DNA from: an uncultured Lachnospiraceae bacterium
GTDB lineage: Bacteria; Bacillota; Clostridia; Lachnospirales; Lachnospiraceae
DNA length: 64,000 bases
Direction: 5' to 3'
NCBI GenBank assembly: GCA_946554445.1
Contig: CAMNSD010000007.1
Span: forward strand, 62,001 to 126,000
Under the pieces are notes generated by a model, which did no database searches, had not been told where the DNA came from, and saw nothing but the letters and a program-made list of their open reading frames with translations. Below are positions 19,444 through 40,318 of the stretch, one piece after another. The stretch's first letter is position 1; each line of letters starts with the position of its first letter. Made by a program: the position numbers and the translations under genes.

Positions 19444-21015
19444 TCAAAAACTCTGGTACATAAACGCCGCCGTATCATACCCGCCACCGTAGATTCCCGT
19501 GATCAGCACCACCAGCAAAATCCCATAATAACAACACCATCTCACCGGCATCGGCCAGCCTGCCAGATACGCCCGCACGTCTTTGCCCTGTTCTTCCCAA
19601 ACAGATACCGCAAGCCATACAAGCAGCGCCGCAAACAGGAGCAGGAAACCATACTTACTGATACCATAAGAGGTAATCGTCCGTGAGAACAGCGCCCTCA
19701 CATCCAGCCTGGTAAGAAACGCCCGGTAGATCATCCCCGCCTGGGCAAGGTTTTCACTGCGGATCAGCACATCCGCCACAAACACGATCAGCCAGGTGCG
19801 CGCCATGCAAAACAGTCCCCAGATTTTCCCTTCTTTGATATGCCATTTTTCTTTCCAGACAGTGTATCTTGCTTCCAGCACCAGGGATACGCTCATAATC
19901 AGGCCGTAATAAACGCCCCAAAGAATATAACTAACCGTTCTGCCGTGCCACATACCTGTGAGAAGCCAGACTATCATGGTTCCCAGAATCGGCGTTGCAT
20001 GTCTGCCCATGACAGCCCATTTTTTCTTGGCCGCCTTCGTAATCTTACGCCCTGTCCCTGACATGACGAAGGAAAACATCACATAATCCTTAAACCAGGC
20101 GCCCAGGGTGATATGCCATCTACGCCAAAATTCCGCCACCGACTTCGAGAAATATGGTCTCTTAAAGTTCTCCGGCAGAAAAATATCGAAAGTATCGCTG
20201 ACGCCCAGCGCCATATCCATATAGCCGGAAAAATCCGCATACAGCTGCAGCATATAAAATGCCACCGCCACCACAAAGATACTTCCCGGTACCTCCGCCG
20301 CCTCCCTCGTAAAAACGTTGTCCACAAACAAACCAATTCTGTCTGCGATCACCAGCTTTTTGAAGGCACCCCAGACAAACCGCTGGATGCCCCGCAGCAT
20401 TCTGTCATAATCAAAGATATGCTCTCTCTCAAATTCTTCTTTCATTTTGGTAAAACGATGAAAAGGCCCCTGCGTAACTGCCGGAAAATAAGATAAGAAC
20501 AACAATACTTTCCAGGGATTTTCCTCCGCCTCATACTGCTCCCTGCCCACATCCACCACATAGCTGATGGCTGTCAGCGTATAGAAGGAAATGCCCAGCG
20601 GCATGATCACCTTTTTAAAAAATCCTGTGGGAACACCCCAGTCCTTTAGGAAAGGCAGGGCCACGACCGTGTATTTATAGAAGACTAACAGTCCCAGATT
20701 CAACGCAAAATAAAGGATTTGAATCCGCTTTCTCTGTTTCTCAAATCCATGTTTTATTGCTTTCTTACTTTCTTTATCTGTGCAGTCCGCAAGTGTCTTA
20801 CGCTGTGAAGCAAGGCTCTTTTGCAGATAAATGCCGCAGCCATAGGTGGCAGCGCAGGTGATGAGCAGGCTGAGCGGAAATCCCTGCAGCCCGATCACAT
20901 AAAACACAAGCCCTGCTGCCAGGAGAATCTGCCATTTCCGCCTCTGCGGCACCAGATAATAGAGGGCGAAGGTAATCACCCACAATATCACAAAGGGGTA
21001 GGATAATAACTGCAT
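19444..21015 (-). CDS. MBOAT O-acyltransferase (DltB/AlgI family) with C-terminal acyl-shuttle motif
   Basis: A 523-residue membrane-bound O-acyltransferase. Hallmarks are LPLGISFYT-like MPLGISFYTLTAISY (138-152), FKKLVIADR (218-226), LYADFSGYMDMALG (258-271), PENFKRPYFSKSVAEFWRRWH (split around residues 281-301) and LLTGMWHG with the catalytic His357. The protein ends FMYQSF, with Tyr520 four residues from the end. This matches the C-terminal aromatic hexapeptide with an acceptor tyrosine found on DltX or fused to other MBOATs. The enzyme should take an acyl group from the carrier protein encoded immediately upstream (no gap) and move it outward to that tyrosine. No separate DltX-like peptide was found. 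Confidence 0.87.
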   Translation of the reverse strand: MQLLSYPFVILWVITFALYYLVPQRRKWQILLAAGLVFYVIGLQGFPLSLLITCAATYGCGIYLQKSLASQRKTLADCTDKESKKAIKHGFEKQRKRIQILYFALNLGLLVFYKYTVVALPFLKDWGVPTGFFKKVIMPLGISFYTLTAISYVVDVGREQYEAEENPWKVLLFLSYFPAVTQGPFHRFTKMKEEFEREHIFDYDRMLRGIQRFVWGAFKKLVIADRIGLFVDNVFTREAAEVPGSIFVVAVAFYMLQLYADFSGYMDMALGVSDTFDIFLPENFKRPYFSKSVAEFWRRWHITLGAWFKDYVMFSFVMSGTGRKITKAAKKKWAVMGRHATPILGTMIVWLLTGMWHGRTVSYILWGVYYGLIMSVSLVLEARYTVWKEKWHIKEGKIWGLFCMARTWLIVFVADVLIRSENLAQAGMIYRAFLTRLDVRALFSRTITSYGISKYGFLLLFAALLVWLAVSVWEEQGKDVRAYLAGWPMPVRWCCYYGILLVVLITGIYGGGYDTAAFMYQSF

Positions 21016-21246
21016 TTATTCCTCCAGCAGACGCTCAACAAGCGCTATGATCGCCTCTTTATTCTTAAAATTCTCCGCCACCACATACTTGGCGTCAATC
21101 TCAATATCAAACTCCTCTTCCAACTCGCTCACGATATTGATGACCGTGAAGGAATCAATGATGCCGTCCTCCATCATGCTGTCGCCATCGTAGGTAAGCG
21201 CTTCCTCACAGTACTCCTCCAGAATCTCCAACACTTTTTCTTCCAT
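21016..21246 (-). CDS. Acyl/aminoacyl carrier protein (DltC-like)
   Basis: A 76-residue acidic four-helix carrier protein. DGIIDSFTV places the 4'-phosphopantetheine attachment site at Ser32, and the DSF form is DltC-like rather than the DSL of fatty-acid ACP. EEFDIEID forms helix II-loop, as in DltC. It should carry the acyl group activated by the adenylating enzyme at 22,192-23,715 to the MBOAT, whose ATG follows its stop directly. Upstream lies an 86-base gap after the formyltransferase gene, AT-rich but without a clear promoter. Confidence 0.88.
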   Translation of the reverse strand: MEEKVLEILEEYCEEALTYDGDSMMEDGIIDSFTVINIVSELEEEFDIEIDAKYVVAENFKNKEAIIALVERLLEE

Positions 21247-21332
21247 AATAGTATTACCCTTCTTTCTATGTTTATCTCCAATTTATCTCTATTTCCATTC
21301 CGCTTCTCAAACCCCAAGATCCAATCTTCATC

Positions 21333-22190
21333 TTACAGGATACGGTATTTCATCTTAAGAAGATGCGTCCCCGAAAGCGGCAGATAAACCACATTCTCCT
21401 CAACCTTCTTTTTCTCCGATACAATCTTGCGGTATCTTACAACTTCCGCACGCACACCGTCCACCACCGTCTGCATGTGCGGGAAGATATCGTTCTTTCC
21501 ATAATCCACACTCCGAAGCAGGCGGTATATGGCTTCCGGTTCCTCAGAAAGTTCAAAAAATCCGTCCCCCGGCACCTCATAAGAACGATACATCCGCCGA
21601 CCAGAGACATTTCCCTGAGATGTTGTCTGGGCACGTTCTTCCAACACAGCCGCAAAGCATTCTTCAAACCCTTCACAGGCCAAATCCATCAGCCGCTCCG
21701 TCAATTCATAGGCCTTATCCTCCGGGCCGATGGCGCACCTTTTTTGAACAATGATATTTCCCTCGTCAATCCCTGCCGTCACATAATGCCAGGTAATACC
21801 TGTCTCCCGCTCCCCCTGATAGATTACCCAGCTGGGGGCATTCCTGCCCGGATAATCCGGCAAAAGGGCGTTGTGGAAGTTGATGATGGTGATATTTTCC
21901 TTCTCCACACAGGCCGCCGGAAAGAGAAAATTGTTGCTGGCGCTGACAATCAGCGTCTTTTCCATGATACCGCACAGATATGCGGACAGTTCCTGTTTGT
22001 CCGGCATAAAGGAATAGGGAATATCCATCTCTTCACAGATTTTCCTGGTAATACTTAAGGCATGGGATTCGTGTTCTATAAATTCCAGATGATAGCCGTA
22101 TGCTGTCCTCTGTCCTTCTATGTATTTCAGTATATTTCCAGTCGCCTTTCCATACCCGATCACCACCACACGGTCAAATTTTTGTCCCAT
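21333..22190 (-). CDS. Formyltransferase-family protein inside the Dlt-like set
   Basis: A 285-residue protein of the methionyl-tRNA/sugar formyltransferase fold. The N-terminal Rossmann part begins VVVIGYGKATG. The catalytic loop reads NFHNALLPDYPGRNAPS, giving Asn104 and His106, and GIDEGNI gives Asp142: the full N-x-H...D triad that uses N10-formyl-tetrahydrofolate. It lies one base after the adenylating enzyme and upstream of the carrier protein, with AAAGGAG ten bases before the ATG. The amine acceptor is unknown. Candidates are an aminoacyl group on the carrier (as by the LgrA formylation domain), a free amino acid, or an amino sugar. Confidence 0.78.
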   Translation of the reverse strand: MGQKFDRVVVIGYGKATGNILKYIEGQRTAYGYHLEFIEHESHALSITRKICEEMDIPYSFMPDKQELSAYLCGIMEKTLIVSASNNFLFPAACVEKENITIINFHNALLPDYPGRNAPSWVIYQGERETGITWHYVTAGIDEGNIIVQKRCAIGPEDKAYELTERLMDLACEGFEECFAAVLEERAQTTSQGNVSGRRMYRSYEVPGDGFFELSEEPEAIYRLLRSVDYGKNDIFPHMQTVVDGVRAEVVRYRKIVSEKKKVEENVVYLPLSGTHLLKMKYRIL

Positions 22191-22191
22191 A

Positions 22192-23715
22192 TCAAAGAAA
22201 CTCCTTTAATTTCACCCTGTCAATCTTTCCATTGGCGTTGATGGGCATTTTCTCCAGTGTGATCAGCTTGTTGGGCAGCATGTACTCCGGCACCAGATGG
22301 GAAATCTTCTCATTGATATAGGCCTTTTCCAACTCTCCCTCAATAAACAGCACAATCTTCTGCCGCTTCTCATCATATAGGCAGCAGCATAAGGCTATCT
22401 CTTCCAGAGAGGAAACGGCTGTCTCGATCTCTCCCAATTCAATCCTGTGCCCCATATGTTTGATCTGGAAATCCTTTCGGGAAAGATAGATCAACTCCCC
22501 GCGTTCATTATATTTTACAATATCGCCCGTCCTGTAGATCAACTCCGGCACATAGGGATTCAAGGGATTCTGCACAAAGGCTTCCCTGGTTTTTTCCGGA
22601 TTGTTGTAGTACCCCATGGAGAGAGAGGTCCCCCGGACACAGAGTTCACCCGATTCCTCCCCGGTCACTTTTTGATTCTGGTCATTCAGCACCAAAATAT
22701 CCGTATTGGGCATCGCATAGCCGATAGGAAGCGGCTCCTCATCTGCAAATTCACGGTCTACCACATAATAAGTGCAGGCGTCCGTAATCTCTGTCGGACC
22801 ATACAGATTAGCATACTGTACATTCGGCAGGAACTTCCGCCATACATTCAGCTGCTTATTGGGCATCACCTCGCCGCAGAATAGTACACGCTTTAACGTA
22901 TCTGACAAATCCACATTCCGAAAAGCCTTGAGTTTCGCTACCACGATCAGCGCAGAAGGCACCCAGAAAATGGTATTGATCTGCTTCTCTTTTAGATATT
23001 CCAACAAAAGCACCGGCTGCGCAAACAGATTCTTCGGCACGATATATGTGGTTGCACCGGTCTTAATGGTGCTGTAAATATCCAGTATGGAATTATCAAA
23101 ATAAAAAGGAGCCTGGTTGCCGAAGCTGTCCTTCTCAGTGATCTGAAAGGTCTCCGTCACCCAGTCCGTATAATCTATCACGGAGCGGTGGTTGATGGTC
23201 ACGCCCTTGGGCACACCCGTGGAACCGGAAGTAAACAGCACGTACAAAAGGTCTGTGTCTACCCCTCTCCTTCTTACCGCCTCAATCCTTTTCTCTCTAG
23301 ATTCTTCCTCGGTCTGCCCGCAGCCTGCCAGCGCTTTTTCCAATATCAGGTATTCTCCCCCATAAGCATACTGCGCAAAAACTTTCTGAAGCGCCGCCGT
23401 GGTAATGACAATGGCGGGATCCAACACTTCCAGAATTTTATTTACACGGCTTCCCGGCATGTCCACATCAATGGGAGAATAAAAGTTACAGCTGTATGCC
23501 GCACCCATAAAGGAGACCAGCACATCGACGCCCTTTTCCAGAAAGACGACCACTGGTCTTTTAAAGAATCCCCGCTCTATCAGTTCATAGGCCACTGCCC
23601 TTGCCTGCTTTCGCATCTGTCCGAAAGTGACCTGCTTGTTTTCATCCACAAAAGCTGTCTTATCCGGCAGCCTGGCCGCCGTCTCATCCAGCCAATAAGT
23701 AACGTTTGCTTTCAT
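22192..23715 (-). CDS. Amino-acid adenylating enzyme (DltA-like)
   Basis: A 507-residue adenylation enzyme. Core motifs are FTSGSTGVPKGV (161-172), NQAPFYFDNS with Asp207, LFCGEVMP with Cys280, YGPTE (305-309), YRTGD, and PINANGKIDR with the catalytic Lys497. Overall it is closer to D-alanine:carrier ligase DltA than to NRPS modules. If the alignment holds, Cys280 is the residue that selects D-alanine in DltA. It should activate an amino acid with ATP and load it on the carrier at 21,016-21,246. Start RBS is weak (GGGATTGAG). Substrate not proven; glycine or another small D- or L-amino acid is possible. Confidence 0.85.
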   Translation of the reverse strand: MKANVTYWLDETAARLPDKTAFVDENKQVTFGQMRKQARAVAYELIERGFFKRPVVVFLEKGVDVLVSFMGAAYSCNFYSPIDVDMPGSRVNKILEVLDPAIVITTAALQKVFAQYAYGGEYLILEKALAGCGQTEEESREKRIEAVRRRGVDTDLLYVLFTSGSTGVPKGVTINHRSVIDYTDWVTETFQITEKDSFGNQAPFYFDNSILDIYSTIKTGATTYIVPKNLFAQPVLLLEYLKEKQINTIFWVPSALIVVAKLKAFRNVDLSDTLKRVLFCGEVMPNKQLNVWRKFLPNVQYANLYGPTEITDACTYYVVDREFADEEPLPIGYAMPNTDILVLNDQNQKVTGEESGELCVRGTSLSMGYYNNPEKTREAFVQNPLNPYVPELIYRTGDIVKYNERGELIYLSRKDFQIKHMGHRIELGEIETAVSSLEEIALCCCLYDEKRQKIVLFIEGELEKAYINEKISHLVPEYMLPNKLITLEKMPINANGKIDRVKLKEFL

Positions 23716-23740
23716 ATCTCAATCCCTATCTTCTCTGATA

Positions 23741-24832
23741 TCAATCATCCTGTTCCTTCGGTAAATTCACCGGATAAAAAGTATCCATCATCTTCTCCGT
23801 TTTCACGTGATAAATATCATATAAATCCGTCATCTCAAGACCGCAGCCCGCCGGATCATAAGAACCATAAAGGGCAATCTGCCGTTCTTGCGCCAGTTCC
23901 TGCACTCTCGCTTCCACTTCCAGCGTAATCTGAAAAGCCTCCTCCGATTCTATGTAATTATACATCATGGGCGAATAGGGTGGCAAGTATAAAATGACTT
24001 CCACGCCCTGCGCCTGCAGCCAGGTAACCAGCCGCTCAAACTGCTTCCAGTGGCCGTAATCAATCTCCTGATAATCCGTCATCCGATAGACCACATGCTC
24101 TTCCATGGACTGCCTGGTCAATTCCTCTACCGTCGCTGTATCTCCCTCCCGCAGTTCCCGTTGGTAGGCGATGCTTCCATCATAATGTTTCAAGTACCGC
24201 TCCGTCTCCCAGTCGTCCGTATAAGAGACTTGAAATCGCTTTCTCTCCGGAAGCAGGGTAACGTTATAGCGGAAATAATCCAGGGAAAGCCATTTGCCCA
24301 TATCTTTCCCAGTGTTCTTTTGCGGATGCAGATTTCCCTCATCGAATTTTTCATTCAGGATCACGCCCATGTAATTAACATATGGATAAAGATCCTTCCA
24401 CCTGTCATTGTCATGACTGGTGTTGAATAAAAAGGCGTCCACGCCAATCACCATGGTCTTCGGCAGTTTATCCTCCGCCGCCAACACCCCTGACACGGCC
24501 AGCAAGTCATAGACTGTGGACTCAGACAGCCCTGCATTATAAAAAGAATCCGTACCAAACATGGTATGGTCGAAATTCATCACCCGGCTGGAACCCGCCA
24601 CGATCACTTCTCTTGACACTTCCTGTTGTTTCACACAGGCCAGGAACAGATTCCTGTCATTAAAATCCGATTCTTCCAGCCCCTCCACGTTCCGTCCGTA
24701 TACTGCCATCTGCTCCCCAATCTGGTCATACGTGATGCGCAGCATCGCATAGGAATCCACATACCAGTTTACCACCGCAATCAGGATGATTACCGGAAGA
24801 AGAAAAAGTATCGCTTTACACCATTTTTTCAT
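23741..24832 (-). CDS. Membrane-anchored SGNH transferase-like protein (DltD-like), copy 2
   Basis: A 363-residue protein with an N-terminal anchor (about residues 7-25) and an outer domain. The block VAGSSRVMNF puts serines 81/82 in the GDSL position, and DLYDIYH near the C-terminus gives Asp339 and His342. In acyl-shuttle systems such a serine enzyme takes the acyl group from the MBOAT tyrosine and passes it to the polymer. It is first in the local order SGNH, adenylating enzyme, formyltransferase, carrier, MBOAT. Its ATG shares one base with the TAA of the DUF6020 gene upstream. Confidence 0.75.
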   Translation of the reverse strand: MKKWCKAILFLLPVIILIAVVNWYVDSYAMLRITYDQIGEQMAVYGRNVEGLEESDFNDRNLFLACVKQQEVSREVIVAGSSRVMNFDHTMFGTDSFYNAGLSESTVYDLLAVSGVLAAEDKLPKTMVIGVDAFLFNTSHDNDRWKDLYPYVNYMGVILNEKFDEGNLHPQKNTGKDMGKWLSLDYFRYNVTLLPERKRFQVSYTDDWETERYLKHYDGSIAYQRELREGDTATVEELTRQSMEEHVVYRMTDYQEIDYGHWKQFERLVTWLQAQGVEVILYLPPYSPMMYNYIESEEAFQITLEVEARVQELAQERQIALYGSYDPAGCGLEMTDLYDIYHVKTEKMMDTFYPVNLPKEQDD

Positions 24833-26514
24833 TAGGATAACGACGCTCCTTTCTCCACATCCTCTTCTGCCCTCTCCTCGTCAGAGGGACCAAACGTATA
24901 AGCAAACAACAAGGGAAATGCCGCAAACAGCCCATAGGCGTAGCGAAATTCATTGTACACCGGCGTGGCCAGAAGCAGACTGCCTAACAGCATGATGAAT
25001 GGTACATAACACATGGCGTTTTTCCTCTGCCAGGCCAGATAGGCAAGGCCAAACAGCATCACCCAAGTATTCAGTCCCAGACTCCACACCTGATTATATA
25101 ATTTCTGGAATCCCATCAGGAAGTTTCCCATGGCGAGACTGTTGTCATAGGTAAAAAGCTTCCTCTCATTGGTAATCCCAAAGGGATTATCCACCATAAA
25201 ATATTCTGCGTAGAGATACTGATCGTGCGGTATTCTGTACGCCCAATACCCGGCGGTCTGCCGCACTTCTCCCTCCAGATAAAGCATAGGATTTCTCAAT
25301 CCTACCCGCAGCCACAGCTTAAAATACTCCCACTTATGCGCCGCGATCACTTCCTGATTGCCCTCTTCCCGGATCAAATTTTTGGTGACATCAAACAGGT
25401 AGGGATTATAGTATTCTTCCATCTTTTCCAAGGGCAGCACCTGCCCGATCATAGCAATCTCTTCCTCCGTCAGGCTGCCGCCTCTCATATAAGCGCAAAG
25501 AAGCTGCTGGGTAGGCATGGTCAATCCCTCGATGGTGTCCGCCTTCTCCACCTGCAGTCCTTTGAGGATCGGTCCCTGATAGAGCAGGTAACAGACGAGC
25601 ACCGCAGCCGCACATAGAAGTGTACGGGCAGGAACCTTCCTGCTGCGACACCATCTGTATATAATCAGCACAAAGGCCGTACCTGCAAAAATCATAATCC
25701 CGTTACTGCGCAAAAGGCAAACTGACAGCCCTGTCACAAAATAGAGTATCCATTGCAGAACGTTCTTTTCTCTCTCCAAATCAAACGTATGACTCATCCA
25801 GGCAAAGAACACCAACGCCGACACAAAAAAGGCGTCTTTTCCCATGCAGATGCTCAGTACTCCATGTACTGGTAGGAGGATATAAAAAGCAAACGCCAGA
25901 ACAAGCCACACAAGACGCGTCCCCCGCTTATACAGCACATACAGACAGAAGGCAAAAGTAAACGCCACAAGCGCCATCTGCCAAAACGTATAGAAGGCCA
26001 CCGCCCCCGTATATGTACCCGACAATTGATAACCGATCGCGACAAAAAACTGCATGATCATCGTATGGAAAAAAGGATGATGATTAGACCTGGCTTTCCA
26101 ACCCAAAATCTGCTCCATCTGCCATATGGCGTCATTGTTGAACCAAGTAGGATAATACATCAGATAATAAGGCAGATAACTGAGCAGGCATATCAAAAAG
26201 AAGCCCAGGAAAACGTACCATTTGCCTGACCGTTTTTTTTGCGCTGCCGCGGTATGATTTGTCCTGAATTTACTCCTAAGATACAAGCATAAAATATCTC
26301 TCCGTGAAATCACAAAACATAAAAGAAACAAAATCCCATAACTGATCAAAGCCCACAACAAAATTCTTCCTATATTCTGCAAATTGGAATAATCCGCCGA
26401 CTTCTGCCAATTCCCCAAAACGATAAATGCCGCATAGCACAGCGAAAAGGGAAGCAGGACCAAAAACTGCCGTCCAGTGGGCAATGCTATGCTCTTTTTC
26501 TCCCGTATCTCCAT
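24832..26514 (-). CDS. DUF6020 multi-spanning membrane protein, GT-C-like, copy 1
   Basis: A 560-residue protein with about twelve membrane segments. It carries the DUF6020 pattern: LPYYLMYYPTWFNNDAIWQ in the first outer loop (acidic residue in the GT-C position), SNHHPFFHT, and a long outer loop containing TMPTQQLLCAYMRGG. It probably glycosylates or otherwise modifies glycans outside the membrane with a lipid-linked sugar; no member is characterised to my knowledge. The ATG at 26514 has GGAG six bases upstream and is preferred over the one at 26526. A second DUF6020 protein is at 44,807-46,630. Confidence 0.72.
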   Translation of the reverse strand: MEIREKKSIALPTGRQFLVLLPFSLCYAAFIVLGNWQKSADYSNLQNIGRILLWALISYGILFLLCFVISRRDILCLYLRSKFRTNHTAAAQKKRSGKWYVFLGFFLICLLSYLPYYLMYYPTWFNNDAIWQMEQILGWKARSNHHPFFHTMIMQFFVAIGYQLSGTYTGAVAFYTFWQMALVAFTFAFCLYVLYKRGTRLVWLVLAFAFYILLPVHGVLSICMGKDAFFVSALVFFAWMSHTFDLEREKNVLQWILYFVTGLSVCLLRSNGIMIFAGTAFVLIIYRWCRSRKVPARTLLCAAAVLVCYLLYQGPILKGLQVEKADTIEGLTMPTQQLLCAYMRGGSLTEEEIAMIGQVLPLEKMEEYYNPYLFDVTKNLIREEGNQEVIAAHKWEYFKLWLRVGLRNPMLYLEGEVRQTAGYWAYRIPHDQYLYAEYFMVDNPFGITNERKLFTYDNSLAMGNFLMGFQKLYNQVWSLGLNTWVMLFGLAYLAWQRKNAMCYVPFIMLLGSLLLATPVYNEFRYAYGLFAAFPLLFAYTFGPSDEERAEEDVEKGASLS

Positions 26515-26547
26515 CCTTTTCTCCATTCTGAAAATTCTGACTTCTTC

Positions 26548-27666: not shown

Positions 27667-27878
27667 TCGCTGTACCCCTGATATTCTTCCTTTAAATCCT
27701 CCGCCAGATAATCATCACTCATACAATGCAAATCCGACACACCTTCTCTGAGAAGTTGATACTCTTTAGACCGATAAAAAAAATCCAATGCAGCATCTAA
27801 CGTCAAATCGCATTTCTCAGCAAATAATGCGATTACTCTGGCATATTTCTTTTGTAAAAGAATTGGATTTGCCATCAT
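27663..27878 (-). CDS. DUF3791-like small protein (second, downstream copy)
   Basis: A 71-residue protein, mostly helical. The core is KYARVIALFAEKC, DAALDFFYRSKEY, EGVSDLHCMSDDYLAEDL, a pattern I recognise from short proteins encoded beside DUF3990 in Clostridia. It starts inside the last codons of the DUF3990 gene (4-base overlap) and its stop overlaps the next GT4 start. It is a candidate antitoxin or accessory of the DUF3990 protein by position and size. No function is established. Confidence 0.65.
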   Translation of the reverse strand: MMANPILLQKKYARVIALFAEKCDLTLDAALDFFYRSKEYQLLREGVSDLHCMSDDYLAEDLKEEYQGYSE

Positions 27879-28354
27879 AATTTATCGCTCCCCTCATAGA
27901 GTAGATACTTATCTATTATTTCTTGGGACCGGATACATATCTGCGCATTTGGTTTTTCATACTTTAATCGTCCAAGCGCTTCTGTCTTTGATATCATATT
28001 CTGAAAATATAATTCAACCGTATCAAACACTTTATCATTCGCCACACCACCCATCACGATATCGTAATCTGTTTCATCCTCTCCCCGGCGGCACAGAAAA
28101 ACAAAATCAAGCCATTCCTCAGAATAAGAATCAAAATTTAGAATTTTCACCCCTTTTGCCTCAAAGGCATTATCGTTAAAAACATATTTGGAAACATATG
28201 CATCCTGTCCGATACTTAAAAATCTCTTACAGAGTCCTTCTGCCTGTTCTTTGATAGGCGTCACATAGAATCCGGGCCCAAAGTCTACTCTCTTACGAGA
28301 ATGATTTATATCGGGTTGAGCCACAATGATGCGAGAACCATGATAAACTATCAT
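27875..28354 (-). CDS. DUF3990 protein, ADP-ribosyltransferase-like (candidate toxin)
   Basis: A 159-residue protein of the DUF3990 family, which I place in the ADP-ribosyltransferase superfamily. The start MIVYHGS gives His5, the usual NAD-binding histidine. DFGPGFYVT gives Tyr30, the second motif. DYDIVMGGVANDKVF (96-110) is the family's central block, and the third position is likely Gln138 or Glu145 in AQICIRSQE. It would transfer ADP-ribose to an unknown target. It overlaps the two flanking DUF3791 genes by four bases each, like a tightly regulated toxin unit. Toxicity is inferred, not shown. Confidence 0.72.
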   Translation of the reverse strand: MIVYHGSRIIVAQPDINHSRKRVDFGPGFYVTPIKEQAEGLCKRFLSIGQDAYVSKYVFNDNAFEAKGVKILNFDSYSEEWLDFVFLCRRGEDETDYDIVMGGVANDKVFDTVELYFQNMISKTEALGRLKYEKPNAQICIRSQEIIDKYLLYEGSDKL

Positions 28355-28596
28355 ATGCTTACCCCCTGTTCTTGCATAATACCCTCAATATCCTCAAGAA
28401 TGTAGTCTTTATCCTGTGTATGCAAAAATTCATATCCGGGAATGATATAATTATTCAAAATATTGCTTTTATCTTTCACAGCAACATATACATCTCTAGC
28501 ATTTTTTCCTTGTTTCAACGCCATATTTTCAATGCAGAAGATTACAAATTCCAACTCGTCTTCTGTTCTCACAGGTAATGCTTCCATCCTGGCCAT
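28351..28596 (-). CDS. DUF3791 small protein (first, upstream copy)
   Basis: An 81-residue protein: DELEFVIFCIENMA, then DVYVAVKDKSNIL, then YEFLHTQDKDYILEDI. The LHTxxxxYIxxDI signature is typical of DUF3791. It precedes the ART-like DUF3990 gene with an ATGA junction, so equal or lower toxin synthesis is built in, as in antitoxin-first modules. It follows the GT4 gene at 28,628 by 31 bases, with AGGGTGAG before the start. Confidence 0.68.
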   Translation of the reverse strand: MARMEALPVRTEDELEFVIFCIENMALKQGKNARDVYVAVKDKSNILNNYIIPGYEFLHTQDKDYILEDIEGIMQEQGVSI

Positions 28597-29861: not shown

Positions 29862-30590
29862 CTATAAGAGTTTCACCAGCACATGCTTCCCCATCGCCAG
29901 CACGTATTCCCATACATGCCCGGCCGCTGTCCTTTTACTCGGCTTTTCCTGCAAATATTCCCGATAGGATATTACCTTCTGTTCCTCAAATATCTTCCGA
30001 TATCTCTCCATATCCCGGCCGTTCAACGTATTGGTGTGTACCACCATTGTGGTAATTCCTTTGTCTTTCTTAAGACTGTTCTCCAGCCGGAAAGAAATGG
30101 GATAAAAAGTAAGGTTCTGCCACAGATACGGGCTGCTCCCGAATCCGTCCGTCAGCCCCTTAAATCCAGCCTGTTTTAAGGCTCGCAAAGTATTTCGGTC
30201 ATAAGAGTGGGCCGGCGCCATAAACAATTGCGTCATAATGCCATGCCCTGCCAGAATCTCTTTCCCATGCTCCAGCATGGCAAGCTGCTCCTCATAGGGC
30301 ACGCCCGCAAACTCCGAAAAATCGTTTAAAGGAAAAACACCGCCCTTGTGTTGTGTGTACACATGATAGCAACCGTGCTGGGCCACCAACCAGCCCTCTT
30401 CCTGCCGCTTCCTGACATATTCCCAGAAATCCTGCCGAAAGACGCCCCGGTCCAGATTCTCGTCCCGATTGTCCGGCACCACACCGATCAACGGTTTAAT
30501 ATCAAATTCATCCAAAAGCGCCGCAAACGCCTGGAACTTCTCCCAATCCATGCCGGGCGTGATATCGTCTAAGCGAACCGCTATCTTCAT
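29862..30590 (-). CDS. DUF2334/polysaccharide deacetylase-like protein
   Basis: A 242-residue cytoplasmic protein: MKIAVRLDDITPGMDW puts Asp8-Asp9 at the metal/base site, AQHGCYHVY gives His72 and His76, and MAPAHSYDRNT is the later conserved block. This is the DUF2334 branch of the NodB deacetylase superfamily. It lies 26 bases downstream of a formyltransferase-like gene and two genes after the WbpP-like epimerase. A plausible role is removing the N-acetyl of a sugar before N-formylation, but the substrate is inferred only. GGAGG five bases before the ATG fixes the start. Confidence 0.7.
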   Translation of the reverse strand: MKIAVRLDDITPGMDWEKFQAFAALLDEFDIKPLIGVVPDNRDENLDRGVFRQDFWEYVRKRQEEGWLVAQHGCYHVYTQHKGGVFPLNDFSEFAGVPYEEQLAMLEHGKEILAGHGIMTQLFMAPAHSYDRNTLRALKQAGFKGLTDGFGSSPYLWQNLTFYPISFRLENSLKKDKGITTMVVHTNTLNGRDMERYRKIFEEQKVISYREYLQEKPSKRTAAGHVWEYVLAMGKHVLVKLL

Positions 30591-30616
30591 ACCAGCCTCC
30601 ATAATTCCGCTCTGCG

Positions 30617-31537
30617 CTACTTCAGTACATCTCCCGCCTGCAGGCTGCGAACACATTCGTAGCGGTCTATCAAAAGGGAGCCATCCACCGTCCGCACCAC
30701 CAGTTTCCCGTCAAACACATCAATCACTTCACCTGGGGCATAGGCCGAAAAATCTATCATCTCATCAAAGGGATGGGCTTCCCACACCCGCACCTCATCC
30801 GCTCCGCACATCGCGAAGGCACCCGGAAAAGGCGCCGCCACGCCACGGATCAGATTATAAATCTCACGGGTTCTGGCATGGAAATCTATCTTCCCATCCG
30901 CCGCCGTGCGCTTTTCATACCAAGAATCAAAATCCTTGGAATCCGTGCGAATCACAATCGCATCTTCCTCATAGGCTTTTAAAAGCTTTCGGATCAGATT
31001 TTTAGAACAGATCATATTCTTATACTGCGCCGTGCGGATATCGTCATGAGGCGTAATGGAAAACATCTCCGTGGCAAACACATTGGGGCTGTCCGCCTTC
31101 TCATCATAGCGGAAGAGATTCAAGTTAAACCGGCTATCCCCCAAAATGATGGACCAATTTAGTGGGGAACGCCCTCTGCCAAAGGGCAGATAACCGCTGT
31201 TGCCATGGAATCCATACACGCCATACTTAAAACAGTCCAGCACCGATTTAGGCATCAGTCTCTGCCATCCCATGGAGATGCCAATATCAAATTCGTTTTC
31301 ACGCATGAATTTCTGTGTTTTTTCGTCCGTCAAGAAATAGCTGTCCGCCTCATGCACGGGAATCCCAAATTTTTCTGTGAGAATGGAAAGTCCCTTATAT
31401 CCCGATACCTGATTCTTCTTCGTGACTTCCGGACTGATGGTAATCACCAGATCCACCGGACAGATCTGCTCCTGGATAAAAGTGACAATATTTTCGGAAG
31501 TATCCTTCACGCCAAATACGACTACCTTGTATTTCAT
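30617..31537 (-). CDS. Formyltransferase-family protein with altered catalytic loop
   Basis: A 306-residue protein with the formyltransferase fold. The N-terminal domain begins KVVVFGVKDTSENI. The loop YGFHGNSGYLPFGRGRSPLN contains His111, and Asp149 lies in KADSPNVF. A C-terminal OB-like domain contains RGVAAPFPGAF. In typical members the first catalytic residue is Asn two before the His; here Gly109 is in that place and Asn113 follows instead. The LPxxRGRxPxNW part is intact, so folate binding is likely. It may formylate a sugar amine or use another one-carbon or acyl donor. AGAGGA precedes the ATG. Confidence 0.72.
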   Translation of the reverse strand: MKYKVVVFGVKDTSENIVTFIQEQICPVDLVITISPEVTKKNQVSGYKGLSILTEKFGIPVHEADSYFLTDEKTQKFMRENEFDIGISMGWQRLMPKSVLDCFKYGVYGFHGNSGYLPFGRGRSPLNWSIILGDSRFNLNLFRYDEKADSPNVFATEMFSITPHDDIRTAQYKNMICSKNLIRKLLKAYEEDAIVIRTDSKDFDSWYEKRTAADGKIDFHARTREIYNLIRGVAAPFPGAFAMCGADEVRVWEAHPFDEMIDFSAYAPGEVIDVFDGKLVVRTVDGSLLIDRYECVRSLQAGDVLK

Positions 31538-31628
31538 ATCATTCCTCTTTTTCTACGCCTGATTCATAACAGTTAAACTATCTCACCGCCGCGTTCTTTC
31601 GCATACGCAAACGTTCTTTTCTCGTTAT

Positions 31629-32606
31629 TTACCGCAGATATTCCTTATACCAGTCGATTGCCAGCGCAATGCCCTTCTCAAAATCATATTCCGGATCATA
31701 GCCCAACAATTCCCTGGCCTTCGTGATATCCGCATTGGAATCCCGCACGTCACCCTTTCTCGGCGGTCCAAAATTGGGTTCCACATCCTTGCCCAGCGCT
31801 TTACAGAGATGATAATAAATATCTATCAAAAAAAGCCTGCCGCCGGCACCCACATTAAAGGCCTGTCCCGCCGCATCCCCGGAAGCCTTACAGGCCCGCA
31901 GATTCGCCTCAATCACGTTATCAATATAAGTAAAATCCCTGGACTGCTTTCCATCGCCATTGATGGTGGGTACTTCCCCGTGGAGCAGCTGCTTGATAAA
32001 CTTCGGGATCACCGCCGCATACATACCATTCGGATCCTGCCTGCGTCCGAACACATTGAAATAACGAAGTCCATAGGTATCCAATCCATACAATTCTTTA
32101 TAAAGGCGGCCATACTCCTCGTCCACTCTCTTCGTCAGCGCATAAGGGGAAATCACCTTTCCTTCCTGGCCCTCTTTCTTCGGCAGTGTTGGAGAATCCC
32201 CATAAACAGAAGAACTGGAAGCATAGACAAATTTCTTGACACCGTTTATCCTGGACGCCTCCATCATATTTAAAGTGCCGCGAATATTAATTTCTTCATA
32301 CAGAAGCGGCATCTCGATACTCCTTGGCACACTGCCCCAGGCCGCCTGCTGTAATACATAATCCACGCCTTCTGTGGCTTCTTTACAGGTATCAAGACTG
32401 CGGATATCGCCCTTGATAAAAGTAAATCTCTCGTTAGATATTAACGGCTCGATATTCTCATATTTACCGGTAGAAAGATCATCCAGACACCGCACAGTGT
32501 AACCCATGTCGATCAATGCCTCACACAGATTAGAACCGATAAAACCGGCGCCGCCGCCTACTAGAAAGACACTGTCCTTGTCAAACTCAATATCCCGATA
32601 TCCCAT
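31629..32606 (-). CDS. UDP-GlcNAc/GlcNAcA C4-epimerase (WbpP/TviC-like)
   Basis: A 325-residue extended short-chain dehydrogenase. It has GGAGFIGSNL for NAD, then VLQQAAWGSVPRSIEMPLL, SSSSVYGDSPTLPKKEG, SPYALTKRVDE (Tyr and Lys of the catalytic triad) and GLRYFNVFGRRQDPNGMYAAV. These match the WbpP/TviC group, which interconverts UDP-GlcNAc and UDP-GalNAc or their uronic acids. With the dehydrogenase at 34,018 it should give UDP-GalNAcA. The ATG at 32606 has AGAAAGGA ten bases upstream; an ATG at 32618 is too close to that site. Confidence 0.88.
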   Translation of the reverse strand: MGYRDIEFDKDSVFLVGGGAGFIGSNLCEALIDMGYTVRCLDDLSTGKYENIEPLISNERFTFIKGDIRSLDTCKEATEGVDYVLQQAAWGSVPRSIEMPLLYEEINIRGTLNMMEASRINGVKKFVYASSSSVYGDSPTLPKKEGQEGKVISPYALTKRVDEEYGRLYKELYGLDTYGLRYFNVFGRRQDPNGMYAAVIPKFIKQLLHGEVPTINGDGKQSRDFTYIDNVIEANLRACKASGDAAGQAFNVGAGGRLFLIDIYYHLCKALGKDVEPNFGPPRKGDVRDSNADITKARELLGYDPEYDFEKGIALAIDWYKEYLR

Positions 32607-32659
32607 TTCGATAACCATCCTTTCTGTTGTTACTTTTCACACGAACCTATTTTTCTCTT

Positions 32660-34030
32660 TCACTGGCCAGGCATCGTCCTGTCTTTTATCTGAAAGTACA
32701 GTTCTCTTATCAACAAATACAATGCCATATAAAAAATTGAGAACCCGTATATCATATACCTGGACAGACACATGATCGTAATAGAGGTGGCGCACACATT
32801 GGCCGCTATAAATAGAAGCGCCACTCCCATAGCCAATGGCGCCTCAAAACGCCTCCTAACACGCATCAGATACAATGACAATCCCACCGACACGAAATAC
32901 AGCGCCAGAGCTGCCCAATTAAGCAGTGGATGCACCACCGCTATGCTTCGCACAAACCCATTTCTGCACAACAAAATATAATCATAAAGCCACTGTCCGA
33001 AACAGACCGGCAACAGCTTCCGGATCATCCTGCCGGCCATATCATCCGACATACTGCTCTGCTCATAGTAGTCTACTTTGCCAAGGCCGAAGAAATAAAA
33101 GGACATATCCGCCTCAAGCACCTGGAATTTTAAAATATCATGATGTTCTTCCAGATATGCCGCCCTTTCCCGAAAGGTATCGCCGGCATATTTATAATTC
33201 AGCCCCAGATGATTGGCTTCCTCATAGAATTGATCGAAAAATTTTCTTTCCAGACTACCTTCTGCAAAAACATCCCCATCTTCCTCGTCGCAGGCATAAA
33301 TCACATTCGTCAGTGTATTGACCTGTCCGTAAGTATTCCCCATAAAGTATCCTGTGACAAAATAATTATACACATGAACCGTCAGACTGCGCAACCCAAA
33401 CACGGCAATCAAAGCCGTCAACGGAATCACAACAGCCCGATATTTCTTACGGATTACCATCTGGATTACACAAATAAGCGCCCACATCAGAATCGTAGTC
33501 ATCATCTGCCCTCTGGTCATAGAAAGCAGGAATGCCATCAGAAGACTGAGTATCCGGTCACGCTTCCTTTCCTCAAAGACCATTCGCAGCAAAAAATACA
33601 GGAAAAACTGAAACAAAGGTATGCACAACGCCTCGCTCATCACCGAGTTTTCTAGGAAAATATGCAGGGCGGACACATACCTCGTCATTAGATGCGGCAG
33701 AAGCTGTAAGAAAACTAACAGTACCTCCTCCCACAGATGCAGGCGAAAACGCCTTGTCAGATATTCCGACAACACCGTGATGCCAAAGGCCGTGAAAATC
33801 CCCTGTACAGCCATCGCCGCCGGCAGATACCCCTCGCCGATCACCGACCGGAAGCACCACAAAAACAGGGGGTAGAGAGGTTCTCTGTGAATGTGCATTA
33901 TGATATACTGTTCGGAGTCGTTATAGACGCCAACACCACAAGCCGCAAGCATGGTCATAAAAAACACAAGCAATGCGGCCAGAATACACAAAGCCCTCTT
34001 CTTATCCCTGTTCAATCTTACAATCTCCAA
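32660..34030 (-). CDS. Multi-spanning membrane protein, GT-C/GT39-like
   Basis: A 456-residue polytopic protein. After the first segment comes VYNDSEQYI, the acidic GT-C position, then HREPLYPLFLWC, a pattern common in bacterial PMT-like proteins. About ten more segments and an outer loop follow. It probably transfers a sugar from a polyprenyl-phosphate donor outside the cell. There is no ATG in the first 19 codons. A TTG at 34030 (GAGGG nine bases upstream, overlapping the dehydrogenase stop) or at 34015 (GGAG nine bases upstream) is the likely start. It sits between the two UDP-GalNAcA genes. Confidence 0.62.
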   Translation of the reverse strand: MEIVRLNRDKKRALCILAALLVFFMTMLAACGVGVYNDSEQYIIMHIHREPLYPLFLWCFRSVIGEGYLPAAMAVQGIFTAFGITVLSEYLTRRFRLHLWEEVLLVFLQLLPHLMTRYVSALHIFLENSVMSEALCIPLFQFFLYFLLRMVFEERKRDRILSLLMAFLLSMTRGQMMTTILMWALICVIQMVIRKKYRAVVIPLTALIAVFGLRSLTVHVYNYFVTGYFMGNTYGQVNTLTNVIYACDEEDGDVFAEGSLERKFFDQFYEEANHLGLNYKYAGDTFRERAAYLEEHHDILKFQVLEADMSFYFFGLGKVDYYEQSSMSDDMAGRMIRKLLPVCFGQWLYDYILLCRNGFVRSIAVVHPLLNWAALALYFVSVGLSLYLMRVRRRFEAPLAMGVALLFIAANVCATSITIMCLSRYMIYGFSIFYMALYLLIRELYFQIKDRTMPGQ

Positions 34031-35334
34031 TACCGATATCCCTCTGCCAGATATGTTTTTCTATCCAAGATGCCCTTTAAATCCATCAATACCTTCTTCT
34101 GGTGGTTGGGATTATAGAAAGCATCAATGTCTTCCCGGCGCAGGCTCAAGAACTGCTCATGCGCCACCGCGATGATCACTGCATCCATATCTTTCACATC
34201 ATCCATGGTCTGGAAGTCTATGCCATAAAGACGTTTGGCCTCCCCTGCATCGGCCGCCGGATCTACCACAAGCGGCGTAATCCCATATTCTCCCAGTTCT
34301 TTATAAATATCAATCACTTTTGTATTTCTGGTATCCGGACAATTCTCCTTAAAAGTGAAACCAAGAATCGCCACCTTCGCTTTTTTCACGGGAATATCTG
34401 ACTTGATCAGGTCTTTTACCAGACTCTCCGCCACATATTTGCCCATATCGTCATTGATGCGTCTGCCGGAAAGAATAATCTGGGAATGATACCCTAACTC
34501 CTCCGCCTTGTAAGTCAGATAATAGGGATCTACGCCAATGCAGTGTCCCCCCACCAATCCCGGCATAAAAGGCAGGAAATTCCACTTCGTACCCGCCGCC
34601 TCCAATACGGATTTGGTATCTATATTCATCTTGTGGAAGATGATTGAAAGTTCGTTCATAAACGCTATATTGATATCTCTCTGGCTATTTTCAATCACCT
34701 TGGCAGCCTCCGCCACCTTGATGGACTCCGCCCGGTAAACACCCACTTCCACCACCAGTTCATAAACTTTAGCGATAATGTCCAATGTTTCTTCATCCAT
34801 ACCGGATACAATCTTGGTGATGGTCTCCAATCTATGTACCTTGTCGCCAGGATTGATACGCTCCGGTGAATAGCCGATCTTAAAATCCACGCCACATTTC
34901 AATCCCGATTCCTTCTCTAAAATAGGCACACAGATATCCTCCGTCACACCGGGATAAACCGTGGATTCAAATACAACCACCGAACCTTTCGTCAGATTCT
35001 GCCCCAAAATACGGCTTGCTCCTTCCACTGGCGACAAATCAGGCGTATGATCATCGTTAACCGGCGTGGGTACCGCCACAATATGAAACTTCGCTTCTCT
35101 CAGACGGGATGCATCCGCCGTGAAATCCACCTTCGTGTTGCGTATCACCTCATTGCCCACCTCATTGGTCGGATCGATGCCGTTCTGATACAAGCCTATC
35201 TTCTGCTCATTTAAGTCAAACCCTACCACCTTGATTTTCCTCGCAAACGCAACTGCGATAGGCATACCCACATATCCTAAGCCTACCAAGGACAGCTTCT
35301 CTTCTCCGCTCACCAGTTTCTCATATAATCCCAT
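34018..35334 (-). CDS. UDP-N-acetyl-hexosamine 6-dehydrogenase (TviB/WbpO-like)
   Basis: A 438-residue nucleotide-sugar dehydrogenase. SLVGLGYVGMPIAVAF forms the NAD site, VPTPVNDDHTPDL and ESTVYPGVTED follow, SPERINPGDKVHRL is the substrate block, and GGHCIGVDPYY carries the catalytic Cys265; then LGFTFKENCPDTRN. The match to TviB of the Vi capsule pathway is strong along its length. It oxidises C6 of UDP-GlcNAc or UDP-GalNAc to the carboxylate with two NAD. The product could be the acceptor for the two AsnB-like amidotransferases. It follows the GT4 gene by nine bases. Confidence 0.9.
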   Translation of the reverse strand: MGLYEKLVSGEEKLSLVGLGYVGMPIAVAFARKIKVVGFDLNEQKIGLYQNGIDPTNEVGNEVIRNTKVDFTADASRLREAKFHIVAVPTPVNDDHTPDLSPVEGASRILGQNLTKGSVVVFESTVYPGVTEDICVPILEKESGLKCGVDFKIGYSPERINPGDKVHRLETITKIVSGMDEETLDIIAKVYELVVEVGVYRAESIKVAEAAKVIENSQRDINIAFMNELSIIFHKMNIDTKSVLEAAGTKWNFLPFMPGLVGGHCIGVDPYYLTYKAEELGYHSQIILSGRRINDDMGKYVAESLVKDLIKSDIPVKKAKVAILGFTFKENCPDTRNTKVIDIYKELGEYGITPLVVDPAADAGEAKRLYGIDFQTMDDVKDMDAVIIAVAHEQFLSLRREDIDAFYNPNHQKKVLMDLKGILDRKTYLAEGYRYWRL

Positions 35335-39181: not shown

Positions 39182-40318
39182 TTATCTGCCAAAACATGCC
39201 CGCACGGTGCGGATGATCAGTTCCATATCTTCCGGCGTATTCTTGATATCGCTGGGCAGGCATAAACCTCTGCCAAAGATATCTTCCCCTACACTGCTGC
39301 CATCTTCATGGTGCGGAAAGAAATCATATGCCGCAAAGACCGGCTGTAAATGCATAGGTTTCCAGATTGGTCTGCTCTCCGCATTGATCTCCCGGTCCAA
39401 GGCATCCATGACCATGTCCGGCGTCACATCACAGCCTTTGGCTATCGTCATACAGGAAAGCCAGTTATTGGCATCCCCTTCTGGATTCATCGGATTCATG
39501 GTTATTTCCGGGATATCTGCAAAAGCTGTCTTATACTGTTCGTAAATAGCTTTCTTCGCCGCCTTATGCTCCTCTAAGTGAAGCAGCTGTCCCCTGCCAA
39601 TGCCGGCAGTCACATTGCTCATACGATAATTATATCCAATCTGGGAATGCTGATAATGTCTGGCGGGATCTCTGGCCTGGGTTGCCAGGAAAGTGGCCTT
39701 TTTCACAGCCTCCTCCTCTGCAGAAACCAACATGCCGCCTCCAGATGTAGTAATGATCTTATTCCCATTAAAAGAATAAATTCCATATTTCCCAAAAGTA
39801 CCTGTATGCCTTCCCTTATAAGTGCTGCTAAGAGATTCCGCCGCATCCTCAATCAGGGGCGTACCGTGCGCCTCACAGATTGCCTTGATCTCATCCAGCT
39901 TCGCCGGCGTGCCATAGAGATGCACTACAACCACTGCTTTCGGATTGGGATACTTTTCATAAGCCCGTTCAAGGGCTGCCGGGGACATATTCCAGGTATC
40001 CGGCTCCGCATCAATAAAGACCGGCGTTCCATTCTCATATACAATCGGATTACAGGTTGCTGAGAAAGTCAGATCTGACACAAACACCACATCGCCCTGT
40101 TTCACAGCTAAAAGTTTGAGCGCCAAATGGATTGCCGCCGTACCGGCGCTTAATGCCGCCGCATAGCCACATCCAGTATATTCTGCTATCTCTTGCTCCA
40201 GAGCATTCACATTGGGCCCCAAAGGCGCTACCCAGTTTGTGTCAAACGCCTCTTTCACAAACATCTGCTCCTCCCCATGCATTGTGGGAGATGATAAATA
40301 AATCCTTTTCTTCTCCAT
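39182..40318 (-). CDS. UDP-4-keto-6-deoxy-hexosamine aminotransferase (PglE/LegC-like, DegT family)
   Basis: A 378-residue DegT/DnrJ/EryC1 aminotransferase. IYLSSPTMHGEEQ at the start and VSDLTFSATCNPI are typical of PglE. HGTPLIEDAAESL has the cofactor-binding Asp158, and YSFNGNKIIT carries the PLP lysine Lys187. It should aminate C4 of UDP-2-acetamido-2,6-dideoxy-hexos-4-ulose with glutamate. The dehydratase encoded immediately upstream makes that ketosugar. It ends 11 bases before the PglC-like gene. Confidence 0.88.
   Translation of the reverse strand: MEKKRIYLSSPTMHGEEQMFVKEAFDTNWVAPLGPNVNALEQEIAEYTGCGYAAALSAGTAAIHLALKLLAVKQGDVVFVSDLTFSATCNPIVYENGTPVFIDAEPDTWNMSPAALERAYEKYPNPKAVVVVHLYGTPAKLDEIKAICEAHGTPLIEDAAESLSSTYKGRHTGTFGKYGIYSFNGNKIITTSGGGMLVSAEEEAVKKATFLATQARDPARHYQHSQIGYNYRMSNVTAGIGRGQLLHLEEHKAAKKAIYEQYKTAFADIPEITMNPMNPEGDANNWLSCMTIAKGCDVTPDMVMDALDREINAESRPIWKPMHLQPVFAAYDFFPHHEDGSSVGEDIFGRGLCLPSDIKNTPEDMELIIRTVRACFGR

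Follow-up and report, generated by a model that had tools for sequence, protein, structure and literature searches.

Aminoacyl esters added by D-alanylation (dlt) systems control the surface charge of Gram-positive bacteria and are a textbook route to cationic-peptide tolerance. A dlt system, such as the DltX-A-B-C-D locus of Enterococcus casseliflavus (L217), combines a stand-alone adenylating enzyme, a carrier protein, an MBOAT and an SGNH-type transferase, with the amino acid held as a thioester and then moved outside. Components of these kinds, that of the SGNH type as a candidate, are encoded by a five-gene block of an uncultured gut bacterium of the Lachnospiraceae, within a stretch of 64,000 nucleotides (hereafter the window; positions 62001-126000 of one contig in a genome of 87 contigs and 4.39 Mb). 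On the minus strand, from 24832 to 19444, five intact, uninterrupted open reading frames (ORFs) follow one another and encode an SGNH-like protein, an amino-acid adenylating enzyme (A), a formyltransferase (FT), a carrier protein (ACP) and an MBOAT (Table 1). This content and order confirm an original prediction made from the DNA alone, as does the start of FT one base after the A stop. The FT between A and ACP sets the block apart from dlt. We consider the block to be probably an operon for Dlt-like surface acylation that includes N-formylation as an in-line step.

Other described systems resemble parts of the block. Linear gramicidin synthetase LgrA joins a formyltransferase, an adenylation domain and a peptidyl carrier protein (PCP) as F-A-PCP, an arrangement also described for conglobatin loading, with the F domain acting on the amino acid held by the PCP (PMC4504003). 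Its output is a formyl-aminoacyl carrier thioester, which, judging from the genes, the window block would also produce. In contrast to LgrA, the window block consists of three separate proteins in the order A, FT, ACP, and its FT is not nearest to the LgrA F domain in sequence. In the searches of the family, control and Vibrio genomes, FT matches above 90 bits are open frames of 286-313 aa. The A-FT-ACP output would pass to a membrane acyltransferase, or the genes stand beside KAS III.

PatA/PatB share with the window an MBOAT with a C-terminal FxYxxF shuttle, and have a separate SGNH protein to which the SGNH-like protein of the window would correspond; this hexapeptide bears the acyl group on Tyr in PatA, and the same role is described for DltX (PMC12148441). 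PatA draws on acetyl-CoA (PMC12148441), whereas the window has A and ACP genes beside the fused shuttle, a hybrid Dlt/Pat layout. MBOAT/SGNH pathways other than dlt are stated to lack a similar carrier protein (PMC12148441), and the block is a gene-level exception to that statement. Sugar N-formyltransferases (WbkC, ArnA, VioF) belong, like the window FT, to the Formyl_trans_N family, share its N-x-H...D residues and include its nearest solved sequence; the window FT, however, is tied to A and ACP and not to amino-sugar aminotransferases. In vicenistatin biosynthesis, VinN/VinL/VinO/VinM comprise an A and an ACP plus enzymes for modifying the amino acid on its carrier and capping the amine, but the cap is an aminoacylation, not a formylation, and the product enters a polyketide synthase (PMC11284099).

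The association of FT with A and ACP recurs widely. An FT-protein search of 299 genomes of the taxonomic family identified relatives at E <=1e-15 in 11, the own genome counted. Within 12-18 kb around FT in the ten others (3.8 kb for one short contig), A, FT, ACP and MBOAT stand together in five (L021-L025), and L020 has A and ACP about 7 kb from FT. A wide scan with an FT profile returned 125 relatives, the best 80 of which were analysed and scored with profiles of the other block genes. These 80 loci belong mainly to Lachnospiraceae, with others from Bacteroidota, Vibrio, Chloroflexota, Sumerlaeota and an archaeon; carriers include Vibrio lentus, one Sumerlaeota, one Bacteroidales, Ornatilinea (Chloroflexota), Robinsoniella peoriensis, Eubacterium sp. 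14-2 (L106) and the archaeon Methanomicrobium mobile. Their flanks hold A in 75/80, ACP in 75/80 and MBOAT in 59/80, and FT lies within 300 bp of both A and ACP in 58/80.

At least 3 kb is available on both sides of FT in 63 of the 80 loci, and in all 63 both A and ACP are encoded on the FT strand, with lowest scores of 525 bits for A and 63 bits for ACP. Any locus missing A or ACP therefore has less than 3 kb on one side. Because most of the 80 loci are close kin of the window, thinned counts matter: among loci sharing less than 40% FT identity, A and ACP are present in 10/10. The ordered neighbourhood whose recurrence the original prediction had left to be established is thus a repeated one, and the block is not a chance juxtaposition. 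A strain-specific block is ruled out by the wide scan.

Among these loci, that of M. mobile (L086) has A-FT-ACP, an MBOAT whose C-terminus reads FIYFAF and, about 2.6 kb from A, a second formyltransferase that is Fmt-like; it was likely gained by horizontal transfer. At L075:10184-11839, downstream of A-FT-ACP, a synthase that is NeuB-like by sequence is fused to a formyltransferase-like domain.

Controls and co-variation point the same way. The profile (E 1e-15) also reached 11 other formyltransferases in eight of the same genomes; none of the 11 adjoins A or ACP, and one is located some 2.6 kb away from the main A. Pairwise distances across 39 dereplicated loci correlate for FT and A (r 0.86), FT and ACP (0.82) and A and ACP (0.78), values that 0/100 permutations reached for any of the three. 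The FT family is rare, found at E 1e-40 in 1/291 genomes sampled across the class (the own one) and in 2/227 Vibrio genomes, whereas relatives of A occur at E 1e-60 in 133/299 genomes of the taxonomic family; FT is thus an optional part of a common A-ACP system. A quick tree of A (100 rows) interleaves FT-less with FT loci and forces at least six changes, where FT-less refers to the region only, G176, G179 and G082 being among the genomes with an FT elsewhere.

The enzymes that would use the loaded carrier vary. MBOAT alone accompanies 57 of the 80 loci, KAS III and/or AAC(3)-like enzymes alone 18, and both kinds 2; none was seen in 3, two of which (L107 and L108) end less than 1 kb from FT. 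Homologues of the two window aminotransferases (BLASTP, E 1e-8) occur in the flanks of 7/80 loci and in 0/59 with MBOAT. With variable users and rare aminotransferases, the constant partners of FT are A and ACP, not MBOAT and not amino-sugar genes, and FT therefore most likely acts on the amino acid bound to ACP, formylating it. The A-FT-ACP trio is portable: elsewhere KAS III or AAC(3)-like enzymes accompany it instead of MBOAT. Loci with A-FT-ACP and KAS III (L087-L089, L091, L094, L095, L103 and L105) add short-chain-reductase-like, metallo-beta-lactamase-fold and malonyltransferase-like genes in various combinations; it is possible that a formyl-aminoacyl unit serves there as the starter of an extended, glycan-bound acyl group.

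The individual proteins fit this assignment to differing degrees. A, FT and MBOAT score above their respective Pfam cut-offs (Table 1), and ACP falls slightly below that for PP-binding (20.2 bits, cut-off 20.8). The catalytic residues of FT, which the original prediction had described as intact, are N104-x-H106...D142, all three invariant in 87/87 aligned sequences (window among them), and the carrier serine of ACP (Ser32 in the window) is invariant in 84/84. A profile of seven MBOAT relatives matches the DltB structures 6bug/8jem (E 6e-39). H301 and H357, one of them the presumed catalytic His, are invariant in 7/7 MBOATs. FxYxxF or FxYxxY closes 60/65 MBOATs, including that of the window. 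The five without an end motif comprise three that leave the contig (L038, L041, L110), one split in two frames (L100) and one that ends early (L068). Schultz et al. 2023 reportedly worked on this shuttle motif.

The SGNH label is the weakest of the five assignments, suggested by motifs, homology to an L082 protein and position. The protein has 363 aa and a hydrophobic N-terminus, and its motifs GSSR (80-83) and D339xxH342 are kept across 43 rows, window included. It gave no Pfam or NCBIfam match, and its profile no significant match among solved structures (PDB). The L082 counterpart, at 36% identity, matches DUF1574 only below cut-off. The proteins in the same place in L021-L024 were chosen by motif, their homology to the SGNH-like protein not being established; those of L021 and L023 are also weakly DUF1574, and that of L024 is not.

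Comparison with curated Dlt models separates the block from dlt itself. A exceeds the cut-off for the general adenylation domain AA-adenyl-dom (336.1 bits, cut-off 317.4) but not that of the DltA model TIGR01734 (332.6 bits, cut-off 559.85), which 0/4 matches in the own genome exceed. The MBOAT reaches 161.8 bits against the DltB model TIGR04091 (cut-off 375), and ACP 39.7 and 26.2 bits against the DltC models NF003464 (cut-off 68) and TIGR01688 (cut-off 52.35). In L217, DltX ends FIYNEF and DltB lacks the motif, whereas the window MBOAT itself carries FxYxxF. The system is thus Dlt-like, not Dlt. An ordinary D-alanylation operon with an irrelevant inserted gene would account for DltC and DltB being the best-named NCBIfam relatives of ACP and MBOAT, with DltA second for A after the general adenylation domain, and for A Cys280, which corresponds to the FCGE cysteine of an annotated DltA. 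The failed Dlt cut-offs, the shuttle on the MBOAT, the different pocket of A and the recurrence of FT, conserved too widely for an accident, lead us to reject such an insertion, to which we attach almost no probability. The claim of the original prediction that four of the genes reproduce D-alanylation therefore stands insofar as this is a carrier-dependent MBOAT/SGNH-type system, and fails on cut-offs, shuttle and pocket. Its interpretation was right in direction and partly supported, with naming too close to dlt.

The substrate pocket of A bears on the order of the reactions. A has Asp207, which we take to occupy the position of GrsA Asp235, the alpha-amine-binding aspartate, and its pocket code is DNLFLCLDAK. 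The aspartate is present in 78/78 readable FT-linked A (80 rows, 2 unreadable) and in 59/71 A from FT-less regions, the latter set being all A matches down to E 1e-139 minus the window's own and three FT-linked ones. This difference has a Fisher p of 8e-5 by row but is weak by distinct code (13/13 versus 19/25, p 0.08); as the rows are related, it is support and not proof. Since the aspartate is kept, A should accept an unformylated amino acid, with formylation afterwards. The reverse order, in which FT formylates the free amino acid and A then activates the N-formylamino acid, would be expected to give the same carrier product and would suit adjacent A and FT genes. The conserved free-amine aspartate makes it very unlikely, as does the finding that three codes (DNLFLCLDAK, DVKIMSLCNK and DIQYMGVVNK) each occur with and without FT. 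Given these shared codes, FT is an addition to one and the same type of loading enzyme.

The pocket code did not lead to a named amino acid: it differs from that of one annotated DltA (DLMILCTVAK, E. casseliflavus L217), and no substrate was assigned. Serine replaces the amine-binding aspartate in A of L148, L149, L152, L155, L190, L212 and L220 (also L153, L157 and L177); most of these enzymes have ACP and MBOAT adjoining, and they may load a non-amino acid.

Gene content, motifs, linkage and co-variation are observed, and the reactions are read from them. Based on its family and pocket, A would activate a free-amine alpha-amino acid and load it onto ACP. The central proposal is that FT would then use 10-formyl-tetrahydrofolate to formylate the amine of the carrier-bound amino acid, a reaction that the gramicidin synthetase F domain performs in cis. 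By analogy with PatA and DltX, the MBOAT would take the N-formylaminoacyl group off ACP and transfer it, outside the membrane, to the Tyr in the FxYxxF motif at the MBOAT C-terminus. The SGNH-like protein could accept the group on Ser and esterify a hydroxyl on the polysaccharide product of the surrounding cluster. The predicted product is an uncharged N-formylaminoacyl ester, and formylation would also protect the bound thioester or ester from attack by its own amine.

An alternative retains FT action on the carrier-bound amino acid but treats the formyl group as temporary protection, preventing cyclisation or self-aminolysis during transfer and removed outside, leaving free aminoacyl esters on the final glycan, as in dlt. 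Protection of carrier-bound amines has a precedent in VinM (PMC11284099). FT also occurs in loci with KAS III, for which an unprotected amine would be a problem. Butirosin offers a further natural protecting-group precedent, and in the Arn pathway the formyl group is temporary. No deformylase-like gene was found among the five by Pfam and NCBIfam, however, and a DUF2334/polysaccharide-deacetylase-like gene at 29862-30656 adjoins the second, ArnA-like formyltransferase of the window and has a homologue (>=35% identity) in only 8/80 flanks. We regard temporary protection as fairly unlikely.

The space between A and ACP, filled by FT in the window, has other contents in the regions without FT (71). 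In 44 of these, A and ACP directly adjoin each other (<350 bp); the slot holds a pyridoxal phosphate (PLP) decarboxylase of the LysA/TIGR03099 kind in 12, a sodium:solute symporter in 3, a GNAT in 1, an AAC(3)-like enzyme in 1 and others in 4, and ACP was not found on the A strand in 6. These families were assigned by family searches on three decarboxylases and one of each other kind, and by BLASTP for the remainder. FT was found in 0/71 of these regions, and by BLASTP the decarboxylase in 0/92 of loci L020-L111. The A-PLP decarboxylase-ACP arrangement (L182, L185, L192, L195, L197, L201, L203, L210, L213, L214, L221 and L226), with MBOAT in the region of 9/12, may be an FT-free sister system making decarboxylated aminoacyl groups for export. 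A Paenibacillus plasmid locus is laid out like the KAS III loci but has a GNAT between A and ACP and lacks FT and MBOAT, and in L084 a GNAT lies between A and FT. At L078:2901-3896, a GNAT acetyltransferase fused to a carrier protein adjoins A and FT.

We infer that the slot is a place for enzymes tailoring the ACP-bound amino acid, with the GNAT and AAC(3) roles predicted by analogy. In vicenistatin biosynthesis, VinO (a PLP decarboxylase) decarboxylates the carrier-bound amino acid and VinM caps its amine (PMC11284099), which provides a precedent for this view. More broadly, we incline somewhat towards A-FT-ACP being a general, previously undescribed supply of N-formylaminoacyl thioesters for surface glycans in bacteria and at least one archaeon. 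Its users would be interchangeable (MBOAT/SGNH for esters, AAC(3)-like enzymes for amides and KAS III for extended acyl groups), and the A-ACP gap would be a swap site for tailoring enzymes.

Several observations weigh against an in-line formylation of the carrier-bound amino acid. The best match of the FT profile among solved structures is GDP-perosamine N-formyltransferase (5vys, E 4.9e-35, profile positions 7-245), followed by ArnA and Fmt, with the gramicidin F domain at just 4e-17. The window cluster includes amino-sugar aminotransferase genes (39203-40282 and 49971-51047, the nearest about 15 kb from the block), so a sugar substrate for FT is conceivable here. Four of the ten other family genomes lack the block (L026-L029). 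Matches to A and ACP in L027 are weak throughout, with one pair (24-25 bits) at 1.1-1.4 kb and another at about 7 kb; the FTs of L028 and L029 are distant ones of about 100 bits. In L026 (genome G176) an MBOAT lies 1.1 kb from the FT-family gene, with no A or ACP in 18 kb (about 8.5 kb on either side); A-ACP-MBOAT is encoded on a different contig of that genome (L156), and the L026 FT may act in trans. At the second Vibrio locus (L175), A adjoins FT directly and 19 kb hold no ACP match; the neighbours there, judged from N-terminal sequence, resemble a beta-ketoacyl synthase and dehydratases. The FT profile was seeded with the window and six linked loci, L026-L029 being dropped, and the seed was thus selected for linkage; the wide scan itself proceeded by FT sequence alone. 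With A and ACP directly adjacent in 44/71 FT-less regions, the slot is often empty. The shared pocket codes imply that FT is unnecessary for loading, and the aspartate contrast weakens when counted by code.

The structural match, the aminotransferase genes and L026 would be expected if FT were a nucleotide-amino-sugar N-formyltransferase of a polysaccharide pathway, sitting by chance in an acylation operon. The presence of A and ACP in 63/63 loci with sufficient flank, the scarcity of aminotransferase homologues, absent from the flanks of the 59 MBOAT loci, and the co-variation of FT distances with A and ACP argue otherwise. The cluster also already has a separate ArnA/PRK06988-like formyltransferase. 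We judge a sugar substrate to be quite unlikely, so that this counter-explanation, raised in the original prediction, is weakened, not removed. FT as a real, recurrent partner of A and ACP is supported; its nearest solved structure is a sugar N-formyltransferase and not the gramicidin F domain offered there as a chemical model.

The genes of the block are closely spaced: 86 bp separate FT from ACP, and the ACP stop is directly followed by the MBOAT ATG (0 bp between). A DUF6020 gene, possibly in the same operon as the SGNH-like gene, has a homologue (>=35% identity) in the flanks of 39/80 FT loci.

Table 1. Genes of the acylation block and the adjoining DUF6020 gene in window coordinates.
Feature	Position	Strand	Basis
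SGNH-like candidate acyltransferase, N-terminal membrane anchor, putative DltD/PatB role	23741..24832	-	Motifs, L082 homology, position
A, amino-acid adenylating enzyme, DltA-like	22192..23715	-	AMP-binding 224.8 bits
FT, formyltransferase, proposed N-formylation of aminoacyl-carrier	21333..22190	-	PF00551 (Formyl_trans_N) 76.2 bits; linkage to A, ACP
ACP, carrier protein, DltC-like, Ser32	21016..21246	-	NF003464, PP-binding, both under cut-off
MBOAT acyltransferase, C-terminal acyl-shuttle hexapeptide FMYQSF	19444..21015	-	PF03062 (MBOAT) 54.7 bits
DUF6020 membrane protein	24832..26526	-	PF19484 84.1 bits; one-base overlap with SGNH-like gene

Around the block lie glycosyltransferases, two asparagine-synthase-like genes, a UDP-glucose dehydrogenase-type gene, an epimerase and a second formyltransferase, a content that places it in a polysaccharide cluster. 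The second formyltransferase (30617-31537) is ArnA/PRK06988-like, with the C-terminal domain present. Together with the DUF2334 gene, the epimerase (TviC-like), the UDP-glucose dehydrogenase-type gene and an aminotransferase (29862-35334 and 39203-40282, both minus strand), it forms what looks like an amino-sugar formylation pathway. A DUF3990/DUF3791 gene pair (27875-28596, minus strand) lies amid glycosyltransferases; a DUF3990 homologue (>=35% identity) occurs in the flank of 1/80 relatives only.

In the literature, from a search mostly outside subscription journals, MBOAT, DltA and formyltransferase were not found together, and the combination of DltA, acyl carrier and formyltransferase gave only apparently unrelated work; no published description of the A-FT-ACP loading-and-capping trio was found. 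On formyl-aminoacyl groups, the sole glycan case returned was the O2 O-antigen of Vibrio anguillarum, for which an N-formyl-L-alanyl group is reported in a passage that gives no linkage (PMC10059132). The main text of that article does not mention 'formyltransferase' or 'acyl carrier' (PMC10059132). No link between this group and A-FT-ACP genes is claimed; the FT family is present in 2/227 Vibrio genomes. In several marine bacteria, N-acetyl-alanyl groups are joined to amino sugars by an amide bond (PMC3210612), and an ester-linked formyl-aminoacyl group would accordingly be new to us.

A formylating version of dlt chemistry would yield an ester of this type that is uncharged and probably more stable. 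A-FT-ACP is also a candidate gene signature for N-formylaminoacyl groups on glycans. The view of the A-ACP gap as a slot for FT, PLP decarboxylase, GNAT or AAC(3) predicts a family of surface modifications that naming by similarity would call D-alanylation.

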